The translations under genes and the position numbers were made by a program. A stretch of 64,000 nucleotides of DNA from Kineosporia corallincola (GTDB taxonomy: Bacteria; Actinomycetota; Actinomycetes; Actinomycetales; Kineosporiaceae), in contig NZ_JAHBAY010000001.1 in the NCBI RefSeq assembly GCF_018499875.1, forward strand, positions 310,001 through 374,000. The letters run 5' to 3'. Positions 942 through 10,653 of the stretch are shown in pieces. Within the stretch, counting starts at the first letter, position 1. Each line of letters begins with the position of its first letter. Below the pieces are notes generated by a model. The model worked only from the letters and a program-made list of their open reading frames with translations, ran no database searches and had not been told where the DNA came from.

Positions 942-3407
942 GTGCTCAGCCCGGTGGCAGAACGTGCCGATACCCAGGGCGAGATGACGATCGGTGATGC
1001 CAACGCCATGCGGACGTCCCGGGGCACCCCGGCGTCGCCCGATGCCGCGCGCCCGGCCGCCGACGGCCACGGCGCGGCCGCGGTGCCCGGCCAGTTCACC
1101 CCTCCGGACGCCCCGGCCCGGCTCTGGACGCCGGAGCAGGCCGAGCACGACCGGCTCGCCGACCTGCACGCCCTGAACCTGCTCGACACTGCTCCCGAGC
1201 AGGGCTTCGACGACCTGGTGCTGCTGGCGTCGAGGCTCACCGGCTGCCCGATCGCCCTCGTCACCCTGGTGGACGCACAGCGGCAGTGGTTCAAGGCGAA
1301 GGTCGGCACCGACCTGTGCTCGACCGACCGCGACATCGCCTTCTGCGAGCACGTGGTGCGGGGCCGGGCCGAGCTGGAGGTGCGCGACCTCCGGCTCGAC
1401 CCGCGTTTCGCCAACAACCCGTTCGTCACCGGCCCGCCCTTCGCGGTGTTCTACGCCGGCTACCCGATCACCACCGCCACCGGCTCGATCCTCGGCACGA
1501 TCTGCGTGATCGACACCACCGAGCGCTCGCTCGGCCTGGAGCAGCGCGAGCAGATGCGCGCCCTGGCCCGGCAGGTGTCCACCCAGCTGGAGCTGCGCCG
1601 GGTCACCATCGACCAGGCCCGCGAGATCGAGATGCGCACGGTGGCGCAGCGGCAGCTGGCCCGCTCCCGCAGCGAGTACCGGCTGCTGGCCGAGACCTCG
1701 GGCGACGTGATCGCCCGGTGCGGGCTGGACGGCCGGATCACCTACATCAGCCCTTCGGTGAGTTCCGTGCTGGGCGTGCTGGTCGACCTGGAGATCGGTG
1801 CCAACCTGCTGGCGCGGGTGCATCCGGACGACCGGCCACAGATGCAGGACGCGATCGAGAGCGTGCGGCTCGGCGACCTCCAGTCGGTCACCGTGCGGGT
1901 GCTCGCCGCGGACGGGCGCTGGCACTGGCTGGAGTGCACGCTGGCCCCGCTGTACGACCCGGAGAAGGGCGAGCTGGAGATCCACTGCTCGGCCCGGGAG
2001 GTCACCGAGCGGGTGGACGCGGCGCGCCGGATCGCCCGGTCGGAGGAACGTTTTCGCAGCATCTTCCACGGCTCGCCGATGGGCATCACGCTCACCGACA
2101 CCGAGGGCCGGTTGATCTCCGCCAACCCGGCGATGTCGCGGTTGCTCGGGGTGCCGCAGGAGGAGCTGATCGGGCGGCTGCGCTCGGAGTTCGTGCACCC
2201 GGCCGACAACCGTCTGCACCCGGACGCGATGCGCGAGCTGATGAAGACACCCGGCTCCAGCCTGGAGGTGCTGGTCCGGTTCAAGCGGTACGACGGTGAG
2301 CTGGCCTGGGCCTCGGCCTGGCTCAGCTGGATCGACGAGGGCGACCCGGAACCGCACCTGCTGGCCCACGTCTTCGACATCACCGACCGGTACCGGGCCG
2401 AGGTGGCGCTGGCCGACAGCGAGGCCAACCTGGCCGCCATCAACCGGGTGACGCGGCGCATCCTGTCCGGCGAGGACGCCCGCACGGTGATCGTGAGCGC
2501 CCTGGTCGACATCGCCGGCGCGCAGGTGGCCAGCCTGTTCGAGCTCGGCGGCGCGGAGGAACTGGTCGCCACCGGCAGCTCGGACGCCAAGCTGCTCGGC
2601 ACCTCCTACCCGTTCACCGAGATCCCGGTCACCGCCGCGGTCTGGCGTGAGGGTGAGCCGCTGTTCATCGAGCGGGCCGAGGACCACCCGCAGCTCAATC
2701 AACGGCTGGCCCGGATGATCGGGGCGAGATCGCTTCTCTACCAACCGGTTCTGAGCGGCGGCGAGGTGATCGCCCTGCTCTCGGTGAGCTGGGGGCAGGA
2801 CGTCACCGAGCTCACCGACCGCCGCGTGCAGGCCGTGGCGCTGCTGGCCGACGAGGCCGCGTTCGCGCTGGAGCACGACGCCCTGCTGCGCCGCTACGAG
2901 GACCTGGCCGGCACCGACCAGCTGACCGGGCTGCCGAACCGGCGGTCGTGGGACGAGCGGCTTTCGGTGCTGATCGCGGCCGCGCGGCGCAACGGCGACC
3001 CGTTCGTGATCGCGGTGGCCGACGTGGACCGGTTCAAGGCCTACAACGACACGCACGGGCACCTGGAGGGGGACGTGCTGCTGCGCGAGGTGGCGCAGGC
3101 CGCCCGGGCGGAGCTGCGGACCGTGGACGTGGTGGCCCGCTGGGGCGGTGAGGAGTTCGCGATCGCGCTGCCCAGCTGTCGTGACGAGGACGCCCGGCAG
3201 GTGCTCGACCGGGTGCGGCTGGCGATGCCGCGCGGCCAGTCGATCAGCATCGGCTACTGCGAGTGGGACGCCGAGGCCACCGCGGAATCCCTGATGAACC
3301 GGGCGGACTCGGCCCTGTACGAGGCCAAGCGCAGCGGCCGGGACCGGGTGGTGTCGGTCACCGAGCTGCCCGCCCCCGAAACCTCCGACGGCGTCACCGA
3401 AGACTGA
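942..3407 (+). CDS. Diguanylate cyclase, GAF-PAS-PAS-GAF-GGDEF
   Basis: Predicted soluble sensor that makes cyclic di-GMP from two GTP. Order along 821 residues: GAF domain (about 60-215), two PAS domains with PAC-like ends (about 225-350 and 360-490), second GAF (about 495-640), GGDEF domain (about 655-810). The active-site loop is GGEEF at residues 735-739, a functional variant. The product-inhibition site RxxD is present as R726-T-V-D729, five residues ahead of it. No EAL domain, no membrane segment and no signal peptide are visible, so input is probably cytosolic (ligand, redox or light). GTG at 942 is the longest start; ATG at 984, preceded by AGGGCGAG, is a reasonable alternative. The 3' end overlaps the convergent SRPBCC gene by 14 bases. 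Confidence 0.92.
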   Translation: MLSPVAERADTQGEMTIGDANAMRTSRGTPASPDAARPAADGHGAAAVPGQFTPPDAPARLWTPEQAEHDRLADLHALNLLDTAPEQGFDDLVLLASRLTGCPIALVTLVDAQRQWFKAKVGTDLCSTDRDIAFCEHVVRGRAELEVRDLRLDPRFANNPFVTGPPFAVFYAGYPITTATGSILGTICVIDTTERSLGLEQREQMRALARQVSTQLELRRVTIDQAREIEMRTVAQRQLARSRSEYRLLAETSGDVIARCGLDGRITYISPSVSSVLGVLVDLEIGANLLARVHPDDRPQMQDAIESVRLGDLQSVTVRVLAADGRWHWLECTLAPLYDPEKGELEIHCSAREVTERVDAARRIARSEERFRSIFHGSPMGITLTDTEGRLISANPAMSRLLGVPQEELIGRLRSEFVHPADNRLHPDAMRELMKTPGSSLEVLVRFKRYDGELAWASAWLSWIDEGDPEPHLLAHVFDITDRYRAEVALADSEANLAAINRVTRRILSGEDARTVIVSALVDIAGAQVASLFELGGAEELVATGSSDAKLLGTSYPFTEIPVTAAVWREGEPLFIERAEDHPQLNQRLARMIGARSLLYQPVLSGGEVIALLSVSWGQDVTELTDRRVQAVALLADEAAFALEHDALLRRYEDLAGTDQLTGLPNRRSWDERLSVLIAAARRNGDPFVIAVADVDRFKAYNDTHGHLEGDVLLREVAQAARAELRTVDVVARWGGEEFAIALPSCRDEDARQVLDRVRLAMPRGQSISIGYCEWDAEATAESLMNRADSALYEAKRSGRDRVVSVTELPAPETSDGVTED

Positions 3408-3953: not shown

Positions 3954-4955
3954 TCAGGCGGCGGGCAACTGCTGTGCACCGGCCTGCTCGACGCCCGGCT
4001 TGACCGAGATGCCGCTGTCGGTGAGCTGATTGCCCTGCACGTCGGTGATGCGGACGGTGCCGCCGCAGCCCTCACCGCTCGCTGAGAGGAAGTAGTTGTA
4101 CATCTGCCGGTCGAGGGTGACCCAGCCGTTGTCGCCCTTCAGCTCGACCTTGCGGATCGGGTTGCGGTGGTTGCGCACCTGGATGCCGCACCACCACTGG
4201 GTGGAGCCCTCCTTGTACACGTACTTCACCGGCCCGGAGACGCTGGGGCTGACCATCTTCCAGGTGATGTCGATGCGGCCGGTGACCGGTTCGGCGAGCT
4301 CGGCGAAGGCCTCGGCGGAGAGGTCGATGTGCCCGGCCGCGCACTCCGGGCAGCGGTCGACGATCTTGACCCGCACCGTGTTGCCCTTGGGGCCGGTGAC
4401 GTCGACGTAGGCACCGCAGGTCTGCGAACCGTCGTACTGCTGCTCGTTCATCGCGGCCACCATCAGGTCGCCGGTGGGCTCGTAGGAGCAGTTGCCCGCG
4501 CCGGTCGCGCCGTAGAACGTGGCGATGCCGTCGTAGGTCTTGCCGAACTGGACCTCGTCGTTCGCCGCGCTCGCCGCGGCCTTGGCGGTGGTGGAACCCG
4601 AACCGCCTGAGGACGACGAGGAACCCGTGGACTTCGTGGCGTCGGCCGAGGCGGCCTTCACCGGCTTGGTCTTCTCGGTGGAGTCGGCCTTCTCGGCCTT
4701 TTTCTCTTCGGGTTTCTTCTCTTTCTTCTTCGCCGTGGGAGTGGCCGACGGCGTGGCGGCCGGGCCGGAGTCCGGCGTCTCGGCCGGGCCCTGAGCCTCC
4801 TGCGCGATGGCGACGTCGGGGCGGGACAGCACCAGCGAGGCGTCGGCGGTGCTCGACGTGGACGACTGCGCGTAGAACACGCCCCCGGTCACGGCGATCA
4901 CGGCGAACGCCACCAGGGCGGTGGCTGCACGGACATCCAGCTTCTTTCGCGACAC
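3954..4955 (-). CDS. Secreted bacterial expansin (EXLX1-like)
   Basis: Exported protein of 333 residues predicted to loosen plant cell walls by binding cellulose/xyloglucan without hydrolysis. Residues 1-30 are a signal or anchor segment (SRKK then a hydrophobic run AATALVAFAVIAVTGGVFYA). Residues 40-135 are a low-complexity linker, first Pro/Thr, then Lys/Glu-rich, then Ser/Gly. The expansin module follows. D1 is a double-psi beta-barrel with GIATFYGATGAGNCSYEP and the acidic HIDLS motif after paired cysteines (VDRCPECAAGHIDLS). D2 is CBM63-like with aromatic WWCGIQVRNHRNPI and NYFLSASG. The GTG start at 4955 has GAGGAG about 10 bases upstream. The long charged linker is unusual compared with the compact Bacillus protein. 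Confidence 0.88.
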   Translation of the reverse strand: MSRKKLDVRAATALVAFAVIAVTGGVFYAQSSTSSTADASLVLSRPDVAIAQEAQGPAETPDSGPAATPSATPTAKKKEKKPEEKKAEKADSTEKTKPVKAASADATKSTGSSSSSGGSGSTTAKAAASAANDEVQFGKTYDGIATFYGATGAGNCSYEPTGDLMVAAMNEQQYDGSQTCGAYVDVTGPKGNTVRVKIVDRCPECAAGHIDLSAEAFAELAEPVTGRIDITWKMVSPSVSGPVKYVYKEGSTQWWCGIQVRNHRNPIRKVELKGDNGWVTLDRQMYNYFLSASGEGCGGTVRITDVQGNQLTDSGISVKPGVEQAGAQQLPAA

Positions 4956-5073
4956 GTTCGGTGATGCTCCTCGCGCGGTCGTCAGGCAGACCTTCTGCCC
5001 GGGTTAAGAGGAGAGCAGTTTTTGCGGCGAGCACCCAGCCGGTTCCCAGGAATCCTGGCTTACGTTGGTCGGC

Positions 5074-5451
5074 ATGGAAGAGAACCGGGCCCGGCGCGTG
5101 GTCGACGCGCTGCGGGAACGAGGTGTCGACGCACGGATGGAGAAGGCTGGTGTGTACCAGTTCGGTCTCTGGATCAAGCTGCCCGGCGGGCGCGAGGCGA
5201 TCTGGGACACGGACGGGTCGGCCGGCCTGGAGGCCCAGGTGATGCGGGACGGCGTGCTGGTCGGGTTCGTGCCCTCGATCCCCGGCTCCGACGGGTTCGA
5301 CGAGGCTCAGGTGGTCGACGCGATCGCCCGCACGGACTACGACCAGCCGATCGCCACCCAGCGCCGCACCGCCCCCGCCCCGGCCGCGCCGCTATCCCCG
5401 CAGGGCGGCATCTTCCGGCGGTTCCTCGACGGGTTCCGCTACCGCGACTGA
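5074..5451 (+). CDS. Conserved hypothetical protein, 125 residues
   Basis: Small, probably cytosolic protein with no membrane segment or signal peptide. It begins MEENRARRVVDALRERGVDA, continues with a compact alpha/beta region (GLWIKLPGGREAIWDTDG, then QVMRDGVLVGFVPSIPGSDG) and ends in a Pro/Ala-rich linker and a basic tail (IFRRFLDGFRYRD). The pattern resembles actinobacterial proteins annotated only as hypothetical; I do not recognise a function. ATG at 5074 is preceded seven bases upstream by TACGTT, a plausible -10 hexamer, so the transcript may be leaderless. TTG at 5065 would add three residues. Confidence 0.75.
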   Translation: MEENRARRVVDALRERGVDARMEKAGVYQFGLWIKLPGGREAIWDTDGSAGLEAQVMRDGVLVGFVPSIPGSDGFDEAQVVDAIARTDYDQPIATQRRTAPAPAAPLSPQGGIFRRFLDGFRYRD

Positions 5452-5610
5452 GCCCGCGGGCCCGGCCTGCCCGGCCTGCTTGAGCGATGGGCCGAGCGCT
5501 GGGCCGATCGGTCGGCAGAGCGACAAATGTCGGCCGGACGGCGACTTTGCGTCGTCCACCCGTACTACATTCGCATCGTGGGAACGGAGGGGGTGGAGCG
5601 CGGCACGGGC

Positions 5611-5991
5611 TCAGCCCCTGCCCGCCACCCGCTGCCCCCGCACCGGCCGGCGCCGCGCCGGGATGCGCACCTCGGCGATCCGCTGCTCACCCCAGGCCAC
5701 GTCCTCGCACACCCAGTCCTCCAGCCGGTCGGCCAGGTAGTAGGCCACCTCGCCGAGCGTCTCCTCCGGGTCGGCCTCCGGGCCGAACCAGAAGGCGCCG
5801 TGCCAGGTGCGGCCGGCCGCCATGACGCGCAGCAGCAGTTCCTGTCCCGGTCCCTGGCCCAGCTCCATCCGTTCCAGCTCGCCCGGCCGGAGCACGGCCT
5901 CGAGAACCGGGAGCACCACGCGCTCGCGGACGTCGTCCAGGGCAGCCGGGTCGAACCGGTCGTCGACACCGGGGCCGCGCAGGGTGGGCAT
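5611..5991 (-). CDS. Hypothetical acidic protein
   Basis: A 126-residue protein with an acidic, Leu-rich core (DVRERVVLPVLEAVL, LGQGPGQELLLRVMAAG, PEETLGEVAYYLADRLEDW) and a very basic C-terminal tail (IPARRRPVRGQRVAGRG). No signal peptide, transmembrane segment or known catalytic motif is visible. The core looks like a small regulatory or immunity-type alpha/beta domain, but that is only an impression. I chose ATG at 5991 because the extra 18 residues available from 6045 look like read-through of non-coding sequence. It is divergent from the first sensor kinase, with a 116-base gap that must hold both promoters. Confidence 0.6.
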   Translation of the reverse strand: MPTLRGPGVDDRFDPAALDDVRERVVLPVLEAVLRPGELERMELGQGPGQELLLRVMAAGRTWHGAFWFGPEADPEETLGEVAYYLADRLEDWVCEDVAWGEQRIAEVRIPARRRPVRGQRVAGRG

Positions 5992-6107
5992 GCCCACAGG
6001 CTGGCAGCCCGGACCGGTCGCGACAACACTCCCGAGGTGAATCAACAGGTTCCAATGAGGGGATATCCCTCTTGTCCGAATCTGTTTGGGCCATCAGGGT
6101 GAATACG

Positions 6108-7901
6108 GTGAGCACGACGTCGATCGCTCAGACGTCGCAACAGCTTCCGGTTCCGCTGTCGCCGAGTCGGCAGTGGTCCCGCACCTTCGCGGTCACCGGT
6201 GCCCTCACCGCCCTCGGCGCCCTCCTGTTCGGCCCGCTGTGGCACGAGTACCCCCAGGTCGCCTCCGGCAGCATCCTGTTCACCGCGATGTTCAGCTGCG
6301 CCGGGGTGATCCTCTGGGACGAGGCCGGGCACCGTCGCACCGCCGTGCTGCTCATCCTGGCCGGGCAGTTCTGGGCGCTCGGCTGGAGCGAGGAGTGGGC
6401 CTTCGGGCCGATGCCGCTGGTCTCCGGCATCTCCAGCTACGTCGCGCTGTCGCTGGCCGCCTGGGCCCTGTTCCGCTACCCCGACCCGGCCCTGATGACC
6501 CGGCTGGAGCGGATCTTCCTGGCCCTGCTGGCCCTCGCGGCGATCGGCGGGATCGTGGCCGAGGACCTCACCATGGAACCGGAGTGGAAGGACTACGCGC
6601 CGGACAGCTGGTGGCTCACCCTCTCGTCCGACCACGCTCTGCACGACCGGATCGCCGAGAGCGTGCGCACCGCCCAGCTCGTCGTGATCGCGGTCTTCGT
6701 GCTGATGTGGATCGTCCGGATCCGCCGCACCCGCGGCCTGGACCGCGAGCTGCTGGCGCCGATGGCCGTGGCCTCCCCGCTGATCGCCGTCGCCGTCGCG
6801 GCGGTGCCGGTGGCCAAACTGCTCGGCCTGACCGGCGGTGCGATGGACCGGGTCTACGCCCTCCAGCCCGCCGTGCTCGCCGTGATCCCGCTGACCTTCC
6901 TGATCAGCGTGGTGCGGCGGAGGCTGGCCGACCACGCCGTGCTCACCCTGGTCCAGCAGGTGCAGCGTCGCCCCACCCCCGAGGCCGTGCAGACCGCGCT
7001 GCGCACGGCCTTGCGCGACGCCACCCTCCGGGTGCGCTACTGGGCGCCCGACCTCAACACCCACGTCGACGTGACCGGCGCCCCGGCCGGCCCGCCCGGC
7101 CCGGACGGGCCCGACGGCGACCGGCTCGTGCTGCCGGTGACCGCTCCCTCCGGCGGCCCGCTCGCCGTCATCGACGCCGACGCCGGGCTGCGCCGGCATC
7201 CGCAGGTGGTGGCGAACGCGCTCGCCGCCAGCGGGCTGGCGCTGGAGAACGCCCAGCTCCAGGCCGCCGTGCTGGGCCGGCTCAGCCAGGTGCGGGCCCT
7301 GCGCATGCAGGCCGTGCAGGCCGGGGTGGCCGAACGCCGCCGGGTGGAGCGCAATCTGCACGACAGCGCCCAGCAGCGGTTGCTGGCACTGCGCCTGGTG
7401 CTGGCCGCCTCGGACTCGCCCGAGCTCGGCACCGGCGCCCGCGACCGGCTGCACGAGATGAGCTCGGAGATCGCCCTGGCCCTGAACGAGCTGCGCGACC
7501 TGGCCCGGGGCATCCACCCGGCGGTGCTCAGCCAGGCCGGGCTGTCCGCGGCGATCGAGGCGGCGGCGCAGAAGCAGCCGTTGCTGCTGGTCGACGCCAC
7601 CCTGCCCGCCGGGCGCTTCCCGGCGGCCACCGAGGAGACGGCCTACTACCTGATCTGCGCGGCTCTCAAGGGTGCGGCGGAGCAGTCGCCGGCGGCCTCC
7701 CGGGTCAGCATCCGCGGCCACGAGACCGACGGGGTGCTGACCATCGAGGTGGAGGACGACGCCCGCCGCCCGGCGCAGCTGCGGCTCGACGCCGAGCTGC
7801 CCGGCATGCTCGACCGGGTGCGTGCGCTCGGCGGCGACATCATGTTCTCCACGCTCTCGCGCGGCGGTTCCCTGATGGTCGCCGCGATTCCCTGCGCCTA
7901 G
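6108..7901 (+). CDS. Sensor kinase 1: His retained, ATPase boxes lost
   Basis: NarL-family (HisKA_3) membrane kinase. The N-terminal third has about seven hydrophobic segments, followed by a GAF-like region and the dimerisation/phosphoacceptor helix ERRRVERNLHDSAQQR with His418 (codon 7359-7361) and the HDxxxQ phosphatase pattern. The ATP-binding domain is degenerate. The N-box, normally E-A-L-T-N-x-x-x-H, reads A518-A-L-K-G522-A-A-E-Q526. The G1 box DDGRGG is DDARRP (550-555), and the G2 glycines are replaced by DAELPGMLDR. It should therefore be unable to bind ATP but able to be phosphorylated. The next gene is a clear paralog with the opposite defect. The start is uncertain: GTG 6108 (AGGG nine bases upstream), GTG 6099 or TTG 6072. 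Confidence 0.88.
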   Translation: MSTTSIAQTSQQLPVPLSPSRQWSRTFAVTGALTALGALLFGPLWHEYPQVASGSILFTAMFSCAGVILWDEAGHRRTAVLLILAGQFWALGWSEEWAFGPMPLVSGISSYVALSLAAWALFRYPDPALMTRLERIFLALLALAAIGGIVAEDLTMEPEWKDYAPDSWWLTLSSDHALHDRIAESVRTAQLVVIAVFVLMWIVRIRRTRGLDRELLAPMAVASPLIAVAVAAVPVAKLLGLTGGAMDRVYALQPAVLAVIPLTFLISVVRRRLADHAVLTLVQQVQRRPTPEAVQTALRTALRDATLRVRYWAPDLNTHVDVTGAPAGPPGPDGPDGDRLVLPVTAPSGGPLAVIDADAGLRRHPQVVANALAASGLALENAQLQAAVLGRLSQVRALRMQAVQAGVAERRRVERNLHDSAQQRLLALRLVLAASDSPELGTGARDRLHEMSSEIALALNELRDLARGIHPAVLSQAGLSAAIEAAAQKQPLLLVDATLPAGRFPAATEETAYYLICAALKGAAEQSPAASRVSIRGHETDGVLTIEVEDDARRPAQLRLDAELPGMLDRVRALGGDIMFSTLSRGGSLMVAAIPCA

Positions 7902-8100
7902 GGCGTGTACCAGGCCGGTCACGCACCCGTCACAGATTTCGGCGGGAGAGAACTCACTTCGTCACGGACAGCCCCCGGGAGCAGGAGATCCGTCCTGGAT
8001 GAGGTCATTGCGTGACCGGAGTCAGATACTCTCTGCTGGTGTTCGGTGACTCCCGACGGACGAGAGCGGCGAATCAGGACATCAGGTAGATCAGCCGCGG

Positions 8101-9942
8101 GTGCGAGGTAATGGATTGTCAGCCAACACCATGGCCGCCAGGGTCTCCGGGCTAGCCCGGCGCTCCCCGGCGCCCGGCCACGGGCACGGGGACGGCGGCG
8201 ACACCCCGCCCACCCGGCCCCGTCCGGTGCCGTGGCTCGGCGCACTGCTGGCCGGTGCCCTGGTGACGCTGCTGGCCTCGCTCGCGCTCGCCCCGCTGTG
8301 GACGTCGAACCCCGAACTGGCCGCTCCCACGGTCGCGTTCGCCGGGGCGCTGGTCGCGGCCGGCGTCATCCTCTCCCGCGAACCGGGCCAGCGCTCGCCC
8401 GGCCTGTCGCTGATGCTCGCGGGCTGTGTCTGGCCGCTGAGCTGGGTGGAGGAGATCAGCCGCGGGTCGTGGCACCTGGTCTCGTTCCTCGCCGCCCCGG
8501 CCACCCTGGTGCTCGCGGCCTGGGCCATCTTCGGCTACCCCGACCCGGAGTCGGTCGGCCGGTCGGAACGCCGCTTCCTGCTCGGGCTGACCGCCTGGAT
8601 GCTGGCCGGGCGGGTTTTCGTCGTCCTCAGTTCCGACCTGACCGCCCACCGTGACGCGGGCACCGCATGGTGGCCGATGCTCCAGTCCGACCCGGGCCTG
8701 CACCGCTGGCTCGCCTATGTCTCCTCGGTCGGGGAGGTGTTGCTGGCCAGCGGTTTCCTGGTGATGTGGGTGCGGCGCAGCCGGCGCATCCGCGGGCTCG
8801 ACCGCAAACTGATGCTGCCGGTGGTGGGAGCCGCGGCGTTCGCCGGCACGGCCAGCATGGGCGCCTCGCTGGCCCAGCTGATCGGCGTGCGCGGCGTGCT
8901 GCTCGACCAGATCCTCGTGGTGCAGACCATGCTGCTGCTGACCGTGCCGATCGCGTTCGTGTTCGCCACCGTGCGCCGTCGTCTGGCCAGCGTGATGATC
9001 GCCGACCTGCTGCCCCGGCTGCGGATGGACCGCACCTCGGAGCGGCTCGAGAGCGCCTTCCGCCAGGTGCTCGACGACCCGGGCCTGGAGATCCACTACT
9101 GGGCCGCGGAGATCGGCGCCTATGTGGACCGGCACGGCGCCACCTCGGCCGACCCGGGCGGCGAGACCGGCGACCACGGGCTGCTGCTGCCGATCACCTC
9201 CACCAACGGTGCCCGGCTGGCGATGATCCGGGCCGACCAGGCGCTGTGGCGCTACCCCGACCTGGTGGAGGCGGCCGGCTCGGCGGCCGGGCTGGCGATC
9301 GAGAACGCCCGGCTCCAGGTGGAGGCCCGGGCGCAGCTGGAGCTGGTGCGGGCCTCGCACGCCCGCATCGTGGCGGCGCAGCTGGCCGAGCGGCAGGCGC
9401 TGGAGAAAGACCTGGACGACGGCGCGCTGCGCCGGGTGCAGGAGCTGCTCGCGCGGATCGAGGGGCCGGGCACGCCGCCCGGCCTGGAAGACACCGTTGC
9501 CTATGCCGCCGAGCAACTGCGCCTGACCGTGGCCGAGCTGCGCGAGATCGCGGCCGGGCTGCACCCCTCGATCCTCGACCAGGTCGGGCTGGCCGAGGCG
9601 GTGCGCCGGATCGGCGCCGCTCAGCCGGTCACCGTCGACGTCGACCTGCCCGAGCAGGGGCTGCCGATGCCGGCCCAGGTGGCCGGTTACTTCGTGGCGG
9701 CCGAGGCGATCACCAACGCGGTGCGGCACGCGCAGGCCTCCCGCATCGACGTGCGCGGCGCCGACACCGGGGGCACCCTGCGGCTGACGATCGAGGACGA
9801 CGGGCGCGGCGGCGCCGACATCGGCTCGGGCACCGGCCTCAGCGGGCTCGGCGACCGGGTGCGCGCGGCCGGCGGCACGATCCACCTGGACAGCCCGCCG
9901 GGGGCGGGCACCACGCTGACGGCGGAGATCCCCTACCGATGA
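8101..9942 (+). CDS. Sensor kinase 2: ATPase intact, His replaced by Asp
   Basis: Paralog of the preceding gene with the same architecture: about seven transmembrane segments, GAF-like region, HisKA_3 helix, HATPase. Shared landmarks include WAIFGYPDP against WALFRYPDP and RRIRGLDRKL against RRTRGLDREL. The ATP-binding domain is complete: N-box E535-A-I-T-N539-A-V-R-H543, G1 box D566-D-G-R-G-G571 and G2 SGTGLSGLGDR. In the phosphoacceptor motif, however, the His is Asp439 (codon GAC 9415-9417), giving KDLDDGALRR. The phosphatase Gln five residues on is Arg. Alone it should bind and hydrolyse ATP but could not autophosphorylate on the usual His. About 200 bases separate it from kinase 1, so a second promoter is possible. 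ATG 8131 is an alternative start. Confidence 0.9.
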   Translation: MRGNGLSANTMAARVSGLARRSPAPGHGHGDGGDTPPTRPRPVPWLGALLAGALVTLLASLALAPLWTSNPELAAPTVAFAGALVAAGVILSREPGQRSPGLSLMLAGCVWPLSWVEEISRGSWHLVSFLAAPATLVLAAWAIFGYPDPESVGRSERRFLLGLTAWMLAGRVFVVLSSDLTAHRDAGTAWWPMLQSDPGLHRWLAYVSSVGEVLLASGFLVMWVRRSRRIRGLDRKLMLPVVGAAAFAGTASMGASLAQLIGVRGVLLDQILVVQTMLLLTVPIAFVFATVRRRLASVMIADLLPRLRMDRTSERLESAFRQVLDDPGLEIHYWAAEIGAYVDRHGATSADPGGETGDHGLLLPITSTNGARLAMIRADQALWRYPDLVEAAGSAAGLAIENARLQVEARAQLELVRASHARIVAAQLAERQALEKDLDDGALRRVQELLARIEGPGTPPGLEDTVAYAAEQLRLTVAELREIAAGLHPSILDQVGLAEAVRRIGAAQPVTVDVDLPEQGLPMPAQVAGYFVAAEAITNAVRHAQASRIDVRGADTGGTLRLTIEDDGRGGADIGSGTGLSGLGDRVRAAGGTIHLDSPPGAGTTLTAEIPYR

Positions 9943-9984: not shown

Positions 9985-10653
9985 GTGCGGGTAGCGATCG
10001 CGGACGACTCCACCCTTTTCCGGGGCGGCCTGCGGCTGCTGCTCGGCCAGGTCGGTGTGGAGGTGTGTCTGGAGGCGGGCAACGCGGACGACCTGATCTC
10101 CGGACTCGCCGGGCTGCCCGGCCCGCGGCCCGAGGTGGTGATCCTCGACATCCGGATGCCCCCCACCTACACCCGCGAGGGGCTGACCGCCGCGGCGCGG
10201 ATCCGCGAGAGCGATCCCGCAACCGGCGTGCTGATCCTTTCCACCTATGCCGAGACCACCTATGCCGCCGAGCTTTTCGCCAACGGCAGTGTCGGCCGCG
10301 GGTACATGCTGAAAGACCGGGTGGACGACGTGGGCACGCTGCACGACGCCCTGGTCCGGCTCGCGGCCGGGGAGTCGCTCGTGGACGCCACGCTGGTGGA
10401 CAGCCTGATCGGGCACTCCCGGCGGCAGGACGCCCTGGCCGCGCTGACCGTGCGCGAGCGCCAGGTGCTGCGCCAGATGGCCGAGGGCCGCTCCAACGCC
10501 GGGGTCGCCGCGGTGCTCAACCTGAGTCACAAGACGGTCGAGAACTACGCCGCCAGCATCTTCGGAAAGCTCGACATCCCGGCGGGGTCCGACGACAACC
10601 GGCGGGTGCTGGCCGTGCTCTCCTGGCTGCGGGCGGGCACGACCTCCTCCTGA
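9985..10653 (+). CDS. NarL/LuxR-type response regulator
   Basis: A 222-residue two-domain regulator. The receiver (1-120) has the acidic pair at residues 7-8 (AIADDSTLF), phosphoacceptor Asp in VVILDIRMPP, conserved Ser/Thr in LILSTYAETT and Lys in YMLKDRV. The LuxR-type helix-turn-helix follows at about 150-215: LTVREREVL-like LTVRERQVLRQMAEG, then LSHKTVENYAASIFGKL. GTG at 9985 has GAGGAG eight bases upstream. It is 42 bases downstream of kinase 2 and is the obvious output for the two unusual kinases; its targets are unknown. Confidence 0.94.
   Translation: MRVAIADDSTLFRGGLRLLLGQVGVEVCLEAGNADDLISGLAGLPGPRPEVVILDIRMPPTYTREGLTAAARIRESDPATGVLILSTYAETTYAAELFANGSVGRGYMLKDRVDDVGTLHDALVRLAAGESLVDATLVDSLIGHSRRQDALAALTVRERQVLRQMAEGRSNAGVAAVLNLSHKTVENYAASIFGKLDIPAGSDDNRRVLAVLSWLRAGTTSS

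Follow-up and report, generated by a model that had tools for sequence, protein, structure and literature searches.

Two adjacent genes of the actinobacterium Kineosporia corallincola, here named K1 and K2, encode paralogous sensor kinases of the HisKA_3 type in which catalytic residues are lost in a reciprocal manner. They lie in a window of 64,000 nucleotides, meaning the whole stretch of DNA analysed (assembly GCF_018499875.1, contig NZ_JAHBAY010000001.1, positions 310,001 to 374,000 of the forward strand; coordinates below are those of the window). In the 8.2 Mb host genome K1, K2 and a NarL-type response regulator stand in a row, all on the + strand. An earlier sequence-only reading had interpreted the two kinases as an obligate heterodimer, in which K2 binds ATP and phosphorylates K1, and K1 serves the regulator. 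The features of the locus are as follows.

6108..7901, + strand: K1, putative acceptor/phosphatase subunit with about eight predicted long helices, a GAF-like domain, an intact HisKA_3 dimerisation and histidine phosphotransfer (DHp) domain and a degenerate catalytic and ATP-binding (CA) domain; from Pfam, alignment, model and orthologs in G001 to G005
7359..7361, + strand: codon (CAC) of the predicted phospho-acceptor His418 of K1; from DNA and alignment
7659..7685, + strand: degenerate N-box of K1, residues 518-526, with Glu to Ala, Asn to Gly and His to Gln; from alignment of six genomes
8116..9942, + strand: K2, putative ATP-binding subunit with an intact CA and Asp439 in place of His (numbered from GTG 8101); from Pfam and alignment; alternative start GTG 8101
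9415..9417, + strand: codon (GAC) of K2 Asp439, at the position of the phospho-acceptor His; from DNA and alignment
9703..9729, + strand: intact N-box of K2, EAITNAVRH, residues 535-543; from alignment
9985..10653, + strand: NarL/LuxR-type response regulator with the acceptor Asp55 assigned by position (LDIRMPP, codon 10147-10149); from Pfam; 89-90% identity in five sister genomes

K1 is 597 amino acids long, from a GTG start at 6108 to a stop that ends at 7901. For K2, a start at TTG 8116 is more probable than one at GTG 8101, because the TTG and the codons next to it (TTG-TCA/TCT-GCC-AAC, encoding SAN after the TTG) are preserved in 6/6 genomes, where they are preceded by GAGG or GAGA (window 8101-8118).

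Complementary losses in K1 and K2

The H-box region of K1, ERRRVERNLHDSAQQRL, bears His418, Asp419 and Gln423 and thus retains the HDxxxQ phosphatase motif; these residues were read in the DNA and in the alignment, as the sequence-only reading had it, and the Pfam match to HisKA_3 (31.6 bits) exceeds the cut-off of 24. The N-box of the same protein reads CAALKGAAEQ, with A518, G522 and Q526 at the E...N...H positions, and no Pfam match to HATPase_c was obtained at E <= 1, in agreement with the claimed loss of this box. The accompanying claim that the glycines of G1 and G2 are gone was slightly too strong: it holds for G1 (DDARRP) and for the first Gly of G2, replaced by Glu563, and the second Gly (G566) is retained.

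In K2 the corresponding H-box region is ERQALEKDLDDGALRRV, where Asp439 replaces His and Arg444 replaces Gln. Its N-box AEAITNAVRH, followed by DDGRGG (G1) and GTGLSGLG (G2), is intact, and HATPase_c is matched at 40.8 bits (cut-off 26.4), so that the complete ATP-binding domain and both substitutions described before are confirmed. Profile comparison, which had been suggested as a check, gave HisKA_3 alone in K1 and HATPase families alone in K2, with no HisKA_3 match in K2 at E <= 1; the P1 to P5 architecture of CheA was absent from these Pfam results. HisKA_3 and the H box are consequently a property of the pair, contributed by K1, and HATPase_c with its N, G1 and G2 boxes is found in K2 only. 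The acceptor His and these boxes never occur in the same protein here, and at the level of sequence the ATP-binding and phospho-acceptor sites sit on two proteins. K2 carries a His at position 420, in the linker helix 19 residues ahead of the acceptor position, kept in 6/6 K2 proteins; we do not think it a likely acceptor. The adjacent regulator is intact, of the NarL/LuxR type and with its acceptor Asp.

A structure model of K1, built on an alignment of eight sequences (mean predicted local distance difference test score, pLDDT, 73.8), shows about eight long helices, not the input region of seven helices proposed earlier, followed by a GAF-like domain, small and of alpha/beta type, from which a long helix leads into DHp. 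Chains of DesK were its top matches in the PDB (E 6.5e-6), with poor superposition of DHp and CA together (root mean square deviation, rmsd, about 8-19); the CA of the model compared with the CA of VraS alone gave TMt 0.74 and rmsd 2.8. On the strength of the model we count a DesK-like DHp-CA fold among the predicted features of K1. The K2 model (mean pLDDT 64.7) was judged too weak, and the fold search was limited to K1.

A protein search of 98 relatives found a K1 ortholog in all five congeners at 78-80% identity, and the order K1, K2, regulator is identical in the fetched DNA of 5/5 of them, hence in 6/6 genomes with that of the window. The losses are shared across these six species, whose locus is 77-81% identical, in open frames. 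K1 keeps the H, D and Q in every genome and has lost the N-box Asn (Gly in five, Thr in one). K2 has Asp (five) or Glu (one) for His, and Arg (three), Ala (two) or His (one) at the Gln position, with N, G1 and G2 intact in all six. Among the K1 and K2 genes of this locus in the five sister genomes there was no ortholog uniting the His and the N-box in one protein, the observation that the sequence-only reading had named as adverse to itself.

Ratios of nonsynonymous to synonymous substitution rates (dN/dS; pairwise Nei-Gojobori, mean of 15 pairs) range from 0.16 to 0.45 across the K1 and K2 domains and show purifying selection on both proteins. In K1 the values are 0.247 for CA and 0.259 for DHp; the catalytically dead CA is thus maintained as a domain under purifying selection. 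In K2 they are 0.217 for CA and 0.448 for DHp, the latter being relaxed.

Elsewhere in the window, a long open reading frame (ORF) at 942-3407 resembles, judged by reading its translation, a GAF-PAS-PAS-GAF-GGDEF protein of the diguanylate cyclase type.

Recurrence of the pair and number of origins

The earliest view of pairs in further lineages came from a profile (A2) of K1 and its orphan paralog K1', described below, run against 394 genomes of the class. For the main survey, also of 394 genomes of the class, we used a sensor-region profile (A1; 23 rows covering the residues ahead of the H box) that contained Kineosporia and G012 proteins. At most four candidates per genome at E <= 1e-42 were scored, and the counts describe the matches obtained and should not be taken as frequencies. 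Class assignment used profile alignment, to which a reading by eye was added for the pairs of L056, L129, L130, L132, L165, L188 and L207; for those of L145-L148 the classifier alone was used.

The survey gave 95 matches in 56 genomes, corresponding to 87 loci, each of which was fetched and classified. One complete kinase is present in 70 of them, and six (L129, L130, L132, L165, L188, L207) hold a reciprocal pair consisting of a K1-type and a K2-type protein. A complete kinase is accompanied by a DHp-only protein in five loci and by a His-less one in a single locus (L158), two loci have a dead single kinase (L202, L203), and in three (L131, L141, L182) the frames are interrupted or unclear and were counted as found, unrepaired; for L141 this means a frame with DHp on its own, its CA being located in a different frame. 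Not one of the 87 loci contains a lone K1-type or K2-type protein. Kineosporia genomes gave no rows in this survey, and their orphan K1' is the one known exception to the absence of lone half-kinases. When class labels were shuffled over 100 genes, three reciprocal pairs were the maximum and six were reached in 0/200,000 draws; shuffling inside the 13 two-gene loci only gave at least six in 18/200,000 draws, with relatedness ignored in both tests. Both members of the pairs in G452 and G409, and one member each in G202 and G199, had already been matched by A2 in a sample of the same size; the survey is therefore not an independent discovery set.

Further pairs came from narrower searches. The pair of G012 (L056), a genome of the same family as Kineosporia, was obtained in the first protein search, and at E <= 1e-8 the sensor profile disclosed no further non-Kineosporia genome besides G012 among the 13 of the family search. 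In family f35 (200 genomes, E <= 1e-50), 19 matches resolved into 14 loci, nine with lone complete kinases and five, from two genera, with reciprocal pairs in the order K1-type, regulator, K2-type; the pair is reciprocal in 5/5 genomes where it was found. For G202, a related pair exists in G325 of the same genus (eight genomes; 13 of 18 matches fetched). For G409, a search of 35 genomes from its family disclosed no second K2-type protein; all 17 remaining matches are complete kinases that stand alone. A scan for relatives of K2 returned six loci, three of congeners and three at 28-37% identity, and no new pair.

At L056, our own reading of the translation places a TRAP-type solute-binding-like protein (4162-5661) between the half-kinases, and this placement hints at a ligand-binding partner; its end is overlapped by a receiver-like ORF (5628-6083). 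The dead kinase-like proteins of L202 (4084-5877) and L203 (3750-5711) have neither acceptor His nor N-box, lie between regulator matches on both sides, and group with the acceptor proteins of G202 and G325 in the larger tree described below. At L131 of G230 (4037-5017 and 4959-6479), a kinase frame passes from DHp directly to the last CA strand, resembling an in-frame loss of most of CA, next to a DHp-only paralog that keeps its His.

The number of origins was estimated from three trees, in which strongly supported branches were starred and the K2-type rows include L158, the neighbour of a complete kinase. In a careful 78-row tree built on the sensor region, from which three L131 ORFs and two L141 ORFs had been dropped, K1-types need five changes and K2-types six under parsimony, and starred branches force five of each. 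A larger quick tree (108 rows, including 26 of the 57 loci L165-L221) again required five and six, with four and four forced by starred branches. A DHp-CA tree without the motif columns gave five and six, with three and three. The agreement of this last tree with the sensor-region tree makes gene conversion confined to the sensor region a less likely cause.

K1- and K2-types of f35 are sisters in a clade supported at 100/100 in the careful tree. Those of Kineosporia are sisters at 94/94, and at 93 in the larger tree, below the starred level, which supports the proposed tandem duplication of K1 and K2 short of certainty. In the larger tree the K1-types of G012, G199 and G177 are joined, as are their K2-types, and G202 is placed with G325; the first three probably share one split, and the last two another, so that about five origins are counted, not eight. 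A single ancient split inherited by all was rejected by approximately unbiased (AU) tests on the sensor region, for one K1-type clade (p-AU 3.6e-59) and for one K2-type clade (2.3e-40). The same kind of split thus seems to have arisen repeatedly in separate actinobacterial lineages, with about five origins, or three to five on strongly supported branches alone; the placement of G409 involves long branches, and gene conversion between neighbours remains a caution.

The putative regulator-facing surface and the orphan paralog K1'

Positions following the acceptor His were compared in 91 complete, 22 K1-type and 17 K2-type proteins from outside the window. At His+8 a Leu, Val, Ile or Cys occurs in 91/91 complete and 22/22 K1-type proteins and in 1/17 K2-types, this one being L158, beside its complete kinase. 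The Gln at His+5 is kept in 80/91, 22/22 and 3/17, respectively. Leu or Val at His+7 has been retained by K2-types throughout (17/17), so that a helical DHp probably still forms in them. In DesK, residues at His+5 (Gln193), His+8 (Ser196) and His+12 (Leu200) are reported to contact DesR, and Gln193 to position water for dephosphorylation (PMC5231405). The changes of K2-types at positions where DesK contacts its regulator fit transfer from K2 to K1 to the regulator: K2 looks like an ATP-using subunit without regulator contact, and K1 like a carrier.

K1' is a paralog of K1 (64-68% identity) present in 6/6 Kineosporia genomes, with an intact DHp and a degenerate CA; its copy in G001 runs off the contig end. 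The host genome has 31 HisKA_3 matches, K2 not among them, of which 30 were fetched and K1 was read from the window. The N-box pattern E...N...H/Y is present in 29/29 proteins other than K1 and K1', leaving these two as the only ones without it. By their sequences, the genome holds two acceptor-type proteins, K1 and K1', and, at this locus, one ATP-type protein, K2. No regulator match lies beside K1' in 5/6 genomes, within fetched flanks of about 3 kb on each side. In G001 (L049, 3-1779), a canonical HisKA_3-like kinase and a weak regulator-like ORF, 27% identical to the regulator of the window, are located upstream of K1'. The CA of K1' evolves faster (dN/dS 0.319, five genomes) than that of K1.

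Proposed mechanism, alternatives and known systems

We consider it quite probable that K1 and K2 are halves of one sensor kinase, in which K2 phosphorylates His418 in trans and K1 alone serves the regulator. K2 would bind ATP, form a heterodimer or a higher assembly with K1, and phosphorylate its His418. K1, as the only one of the two to serve the adjacent NarL-type regulator, would hand the phosphoryl group to Asp55, and its Gln423 would also allow dephosphorylation of the regulator, probably best when K2 is not engaged. K2 could have a second acceptor in the orphan K1'. What we infer from comparison of sequences comprises dimerisation, trans-phosphorylation, phosphatase activity, a loss of docking, the direction of the signal and the proposed 'two signals'. 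The heterodimer interpretation of the sequence-only reading gains support from the recurrence of reciprocal losses in other lineages. A wider reading, whose chances we hold to be even, is that obligate two-protein sensor kinases arose about five times in one actinobacterial HisKA_3 family by reciprocal degeneration of paralogs, each made of a regulator-docking carrier/phosphatase and a pure ATP-using subunit, and that in Kineosporia one ATP subunit would serve two acceptors, a built-in branch.

Several observations weigh against the two-halves explanation. DesK carries Ser at His+8, so that a docking role of the hydrophobic residue is read from its position. K1-types of f35 retain the N-box Glu and part of G1, and their loss of ATP binding is therefore predicted, not certain. 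All six genomes (6/6) have retained K1', a K1-type protein without a neighbouring partner, so that a protein of this type can persist away from a K2 gene. The trees have long branches, their starred branches force just five, four or three changes depending on the tree, and the sister grouping of Kineosporia K1 and K2 is not starred. Furthermore, a complete kinase stands beside a DHp-only sister paralog at L125, L126, L127, L128 and L198 (G166, G363, G417, G431 and G150), and at L158 of G202 a His-less kinase with an intact CA (4989-6809) has a complete kinase and a regulator match as tail-to-tail neighbours; not all pairs, therefore, obey the logic of a split kinase. The DHp-only paralogs stop after DHp without CA, have N, H, G, E and G, respectively, at the His position, and form one group in the trees, being another kind of kinase pair.

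Tentatively, K2 may be a shared kinase for K1 and K1' in a branched network, which is compatible with the two-halves explanation and not exclusive of it. The intact DHp and degenerate CA of K1' in all six genomes, and the lack of a regulator match in its flanks in five, are in line with such sharing; its faster CA may instead indicate a sink or a protein losing function, and the canonical kinase and regulator-like gene upstream of it in G001 may mean that it belongs elsewhere.

Less probably, and in our judgement unlikely, K1 is a dedicated phosphatase or sink regulated by K2, with ATP binding as an allosteric switch only and the regulator receiving its phosphoryl group from a different kinase or from a small phosphodonor. 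K1 retains the HisKA_3 phosphatase motif, and His is reported to be nonessential for dephosphorylation mediated by NarX (PMC5231405). A pure phosphatase would, however, have no need of the acceptor His found in 22/22 K1-types of several origins, and the N, G1 and G2 boxes of K2 are kept, with a low dN/dS in its CA.

RetS and DivL are pseudokinases that modulate complete kinases, and K1 and K2 could likewise be independent pseudokinases acting on other complete kinases, their reciprocal pattern being coincidental. Within this family some complete kinases do stand next to a DHp-only or His-less paralog (L125-L128, L198, L158), which lends the idea some plausibility, yet the absence of lone half-kinases against six reciprocal pairs in 87 loci, a number that shuffles rarely reach, and the recurrence of the pattern in separate lineages make it improbable. 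Sequencing error or ongoing gene decay, for which no favourable point was found, has a negligible chance and is refuted for this locus by equal losses in six species, open frames and dN/dS, including purifying selection on the CA of K1.

As a rule, histidine kinases are regarded as homodimers. A two-protein kinase with its regulator is formed in another actinobacterium by Rv0600c/Rv0601c/TcrA of Mycobacterium tuberculosis, which is split by domains and not into full-length paralogs. CheA3/CheA4 of Rhodobacter sphaeroides is a split histidine kinase in which one protein binds ATP and another carries the phospho-acceptor; the latter also dephosphorylates the regulator (PMC3591291). It is of the CheA type and has lost whole domains (CheA4 without P1; CheA3 without P3 and P4; PMC3591291), whereas the two Kineosporia proteins, with their predicted membrane helices, are HisKA_3 paralogs of full length in which point degeneration is reciprocal. 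The same report gives an estimate of up to 1.7% for the share of kinases that could be both split and bifunctional (PMC3591291). In Synechocystis, Hik36 and Hik43 jointly make one kinase for a regulator, but they derive from a cheA homolog whose two parts are encoded by distant genes (PMC7656254).

Closest in logic is FasB/FasC with FasA of Streptococcus pyogenes, where two sensor-kinase-like proteins and one regulator share a locus, and a heterodimer and no homodimer was reported in two-hybrid assays (PMC12675982). In contrast to the Kineosporia locus, FasA is a ComE-type regulator, the putative DHp of FasB keeps two His residues, and the parts of the report cited here describe one system, not recurrent reciprocal loss (PMC12675982). 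The ChrS pseudokinase and HrrS of Corynebacterium glutamicum are also actinobacterial paralogous kinases, and heterodimers between the native kinases were observed in two-hybrid assays; there, in contrast, a frameshift during laboratory evolution gave rise to the pseudokinase, whose His is dispensable and whose partner is complete (PMC9491836). Splitting of kinases is thus already known, and what is unusual here is the evolutionary pattern of recurrent reciprocal losses. Neither the cited parts of these reports nor the titles and abstract starts listed by searches of an open-access library describe a HisKA_3 paralog pair with reciprocal degeneration or its repeated origin; these searches left subscription journals mostly outside their scope and are no proof of absence.

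Each of the two proteins fails half of a domain test, and annotation pipelines may therefore file it as a broken kinase; K1 and K2 each run the risk of this label, a warning for such pipelines. The pairs bear on whether HisKA_3 dimers can phosphorylate in trans, a matter of cis versus trans for which a limited look at the literature found no answer, and on whether a switch results when kinase and phosphatase are separated, which has been modelled for CheA3/CheA4 (PMC3591291). Repeated conversion into complementary pairs would also provide natural replicates for how obligate heteromers evolve after duplication.

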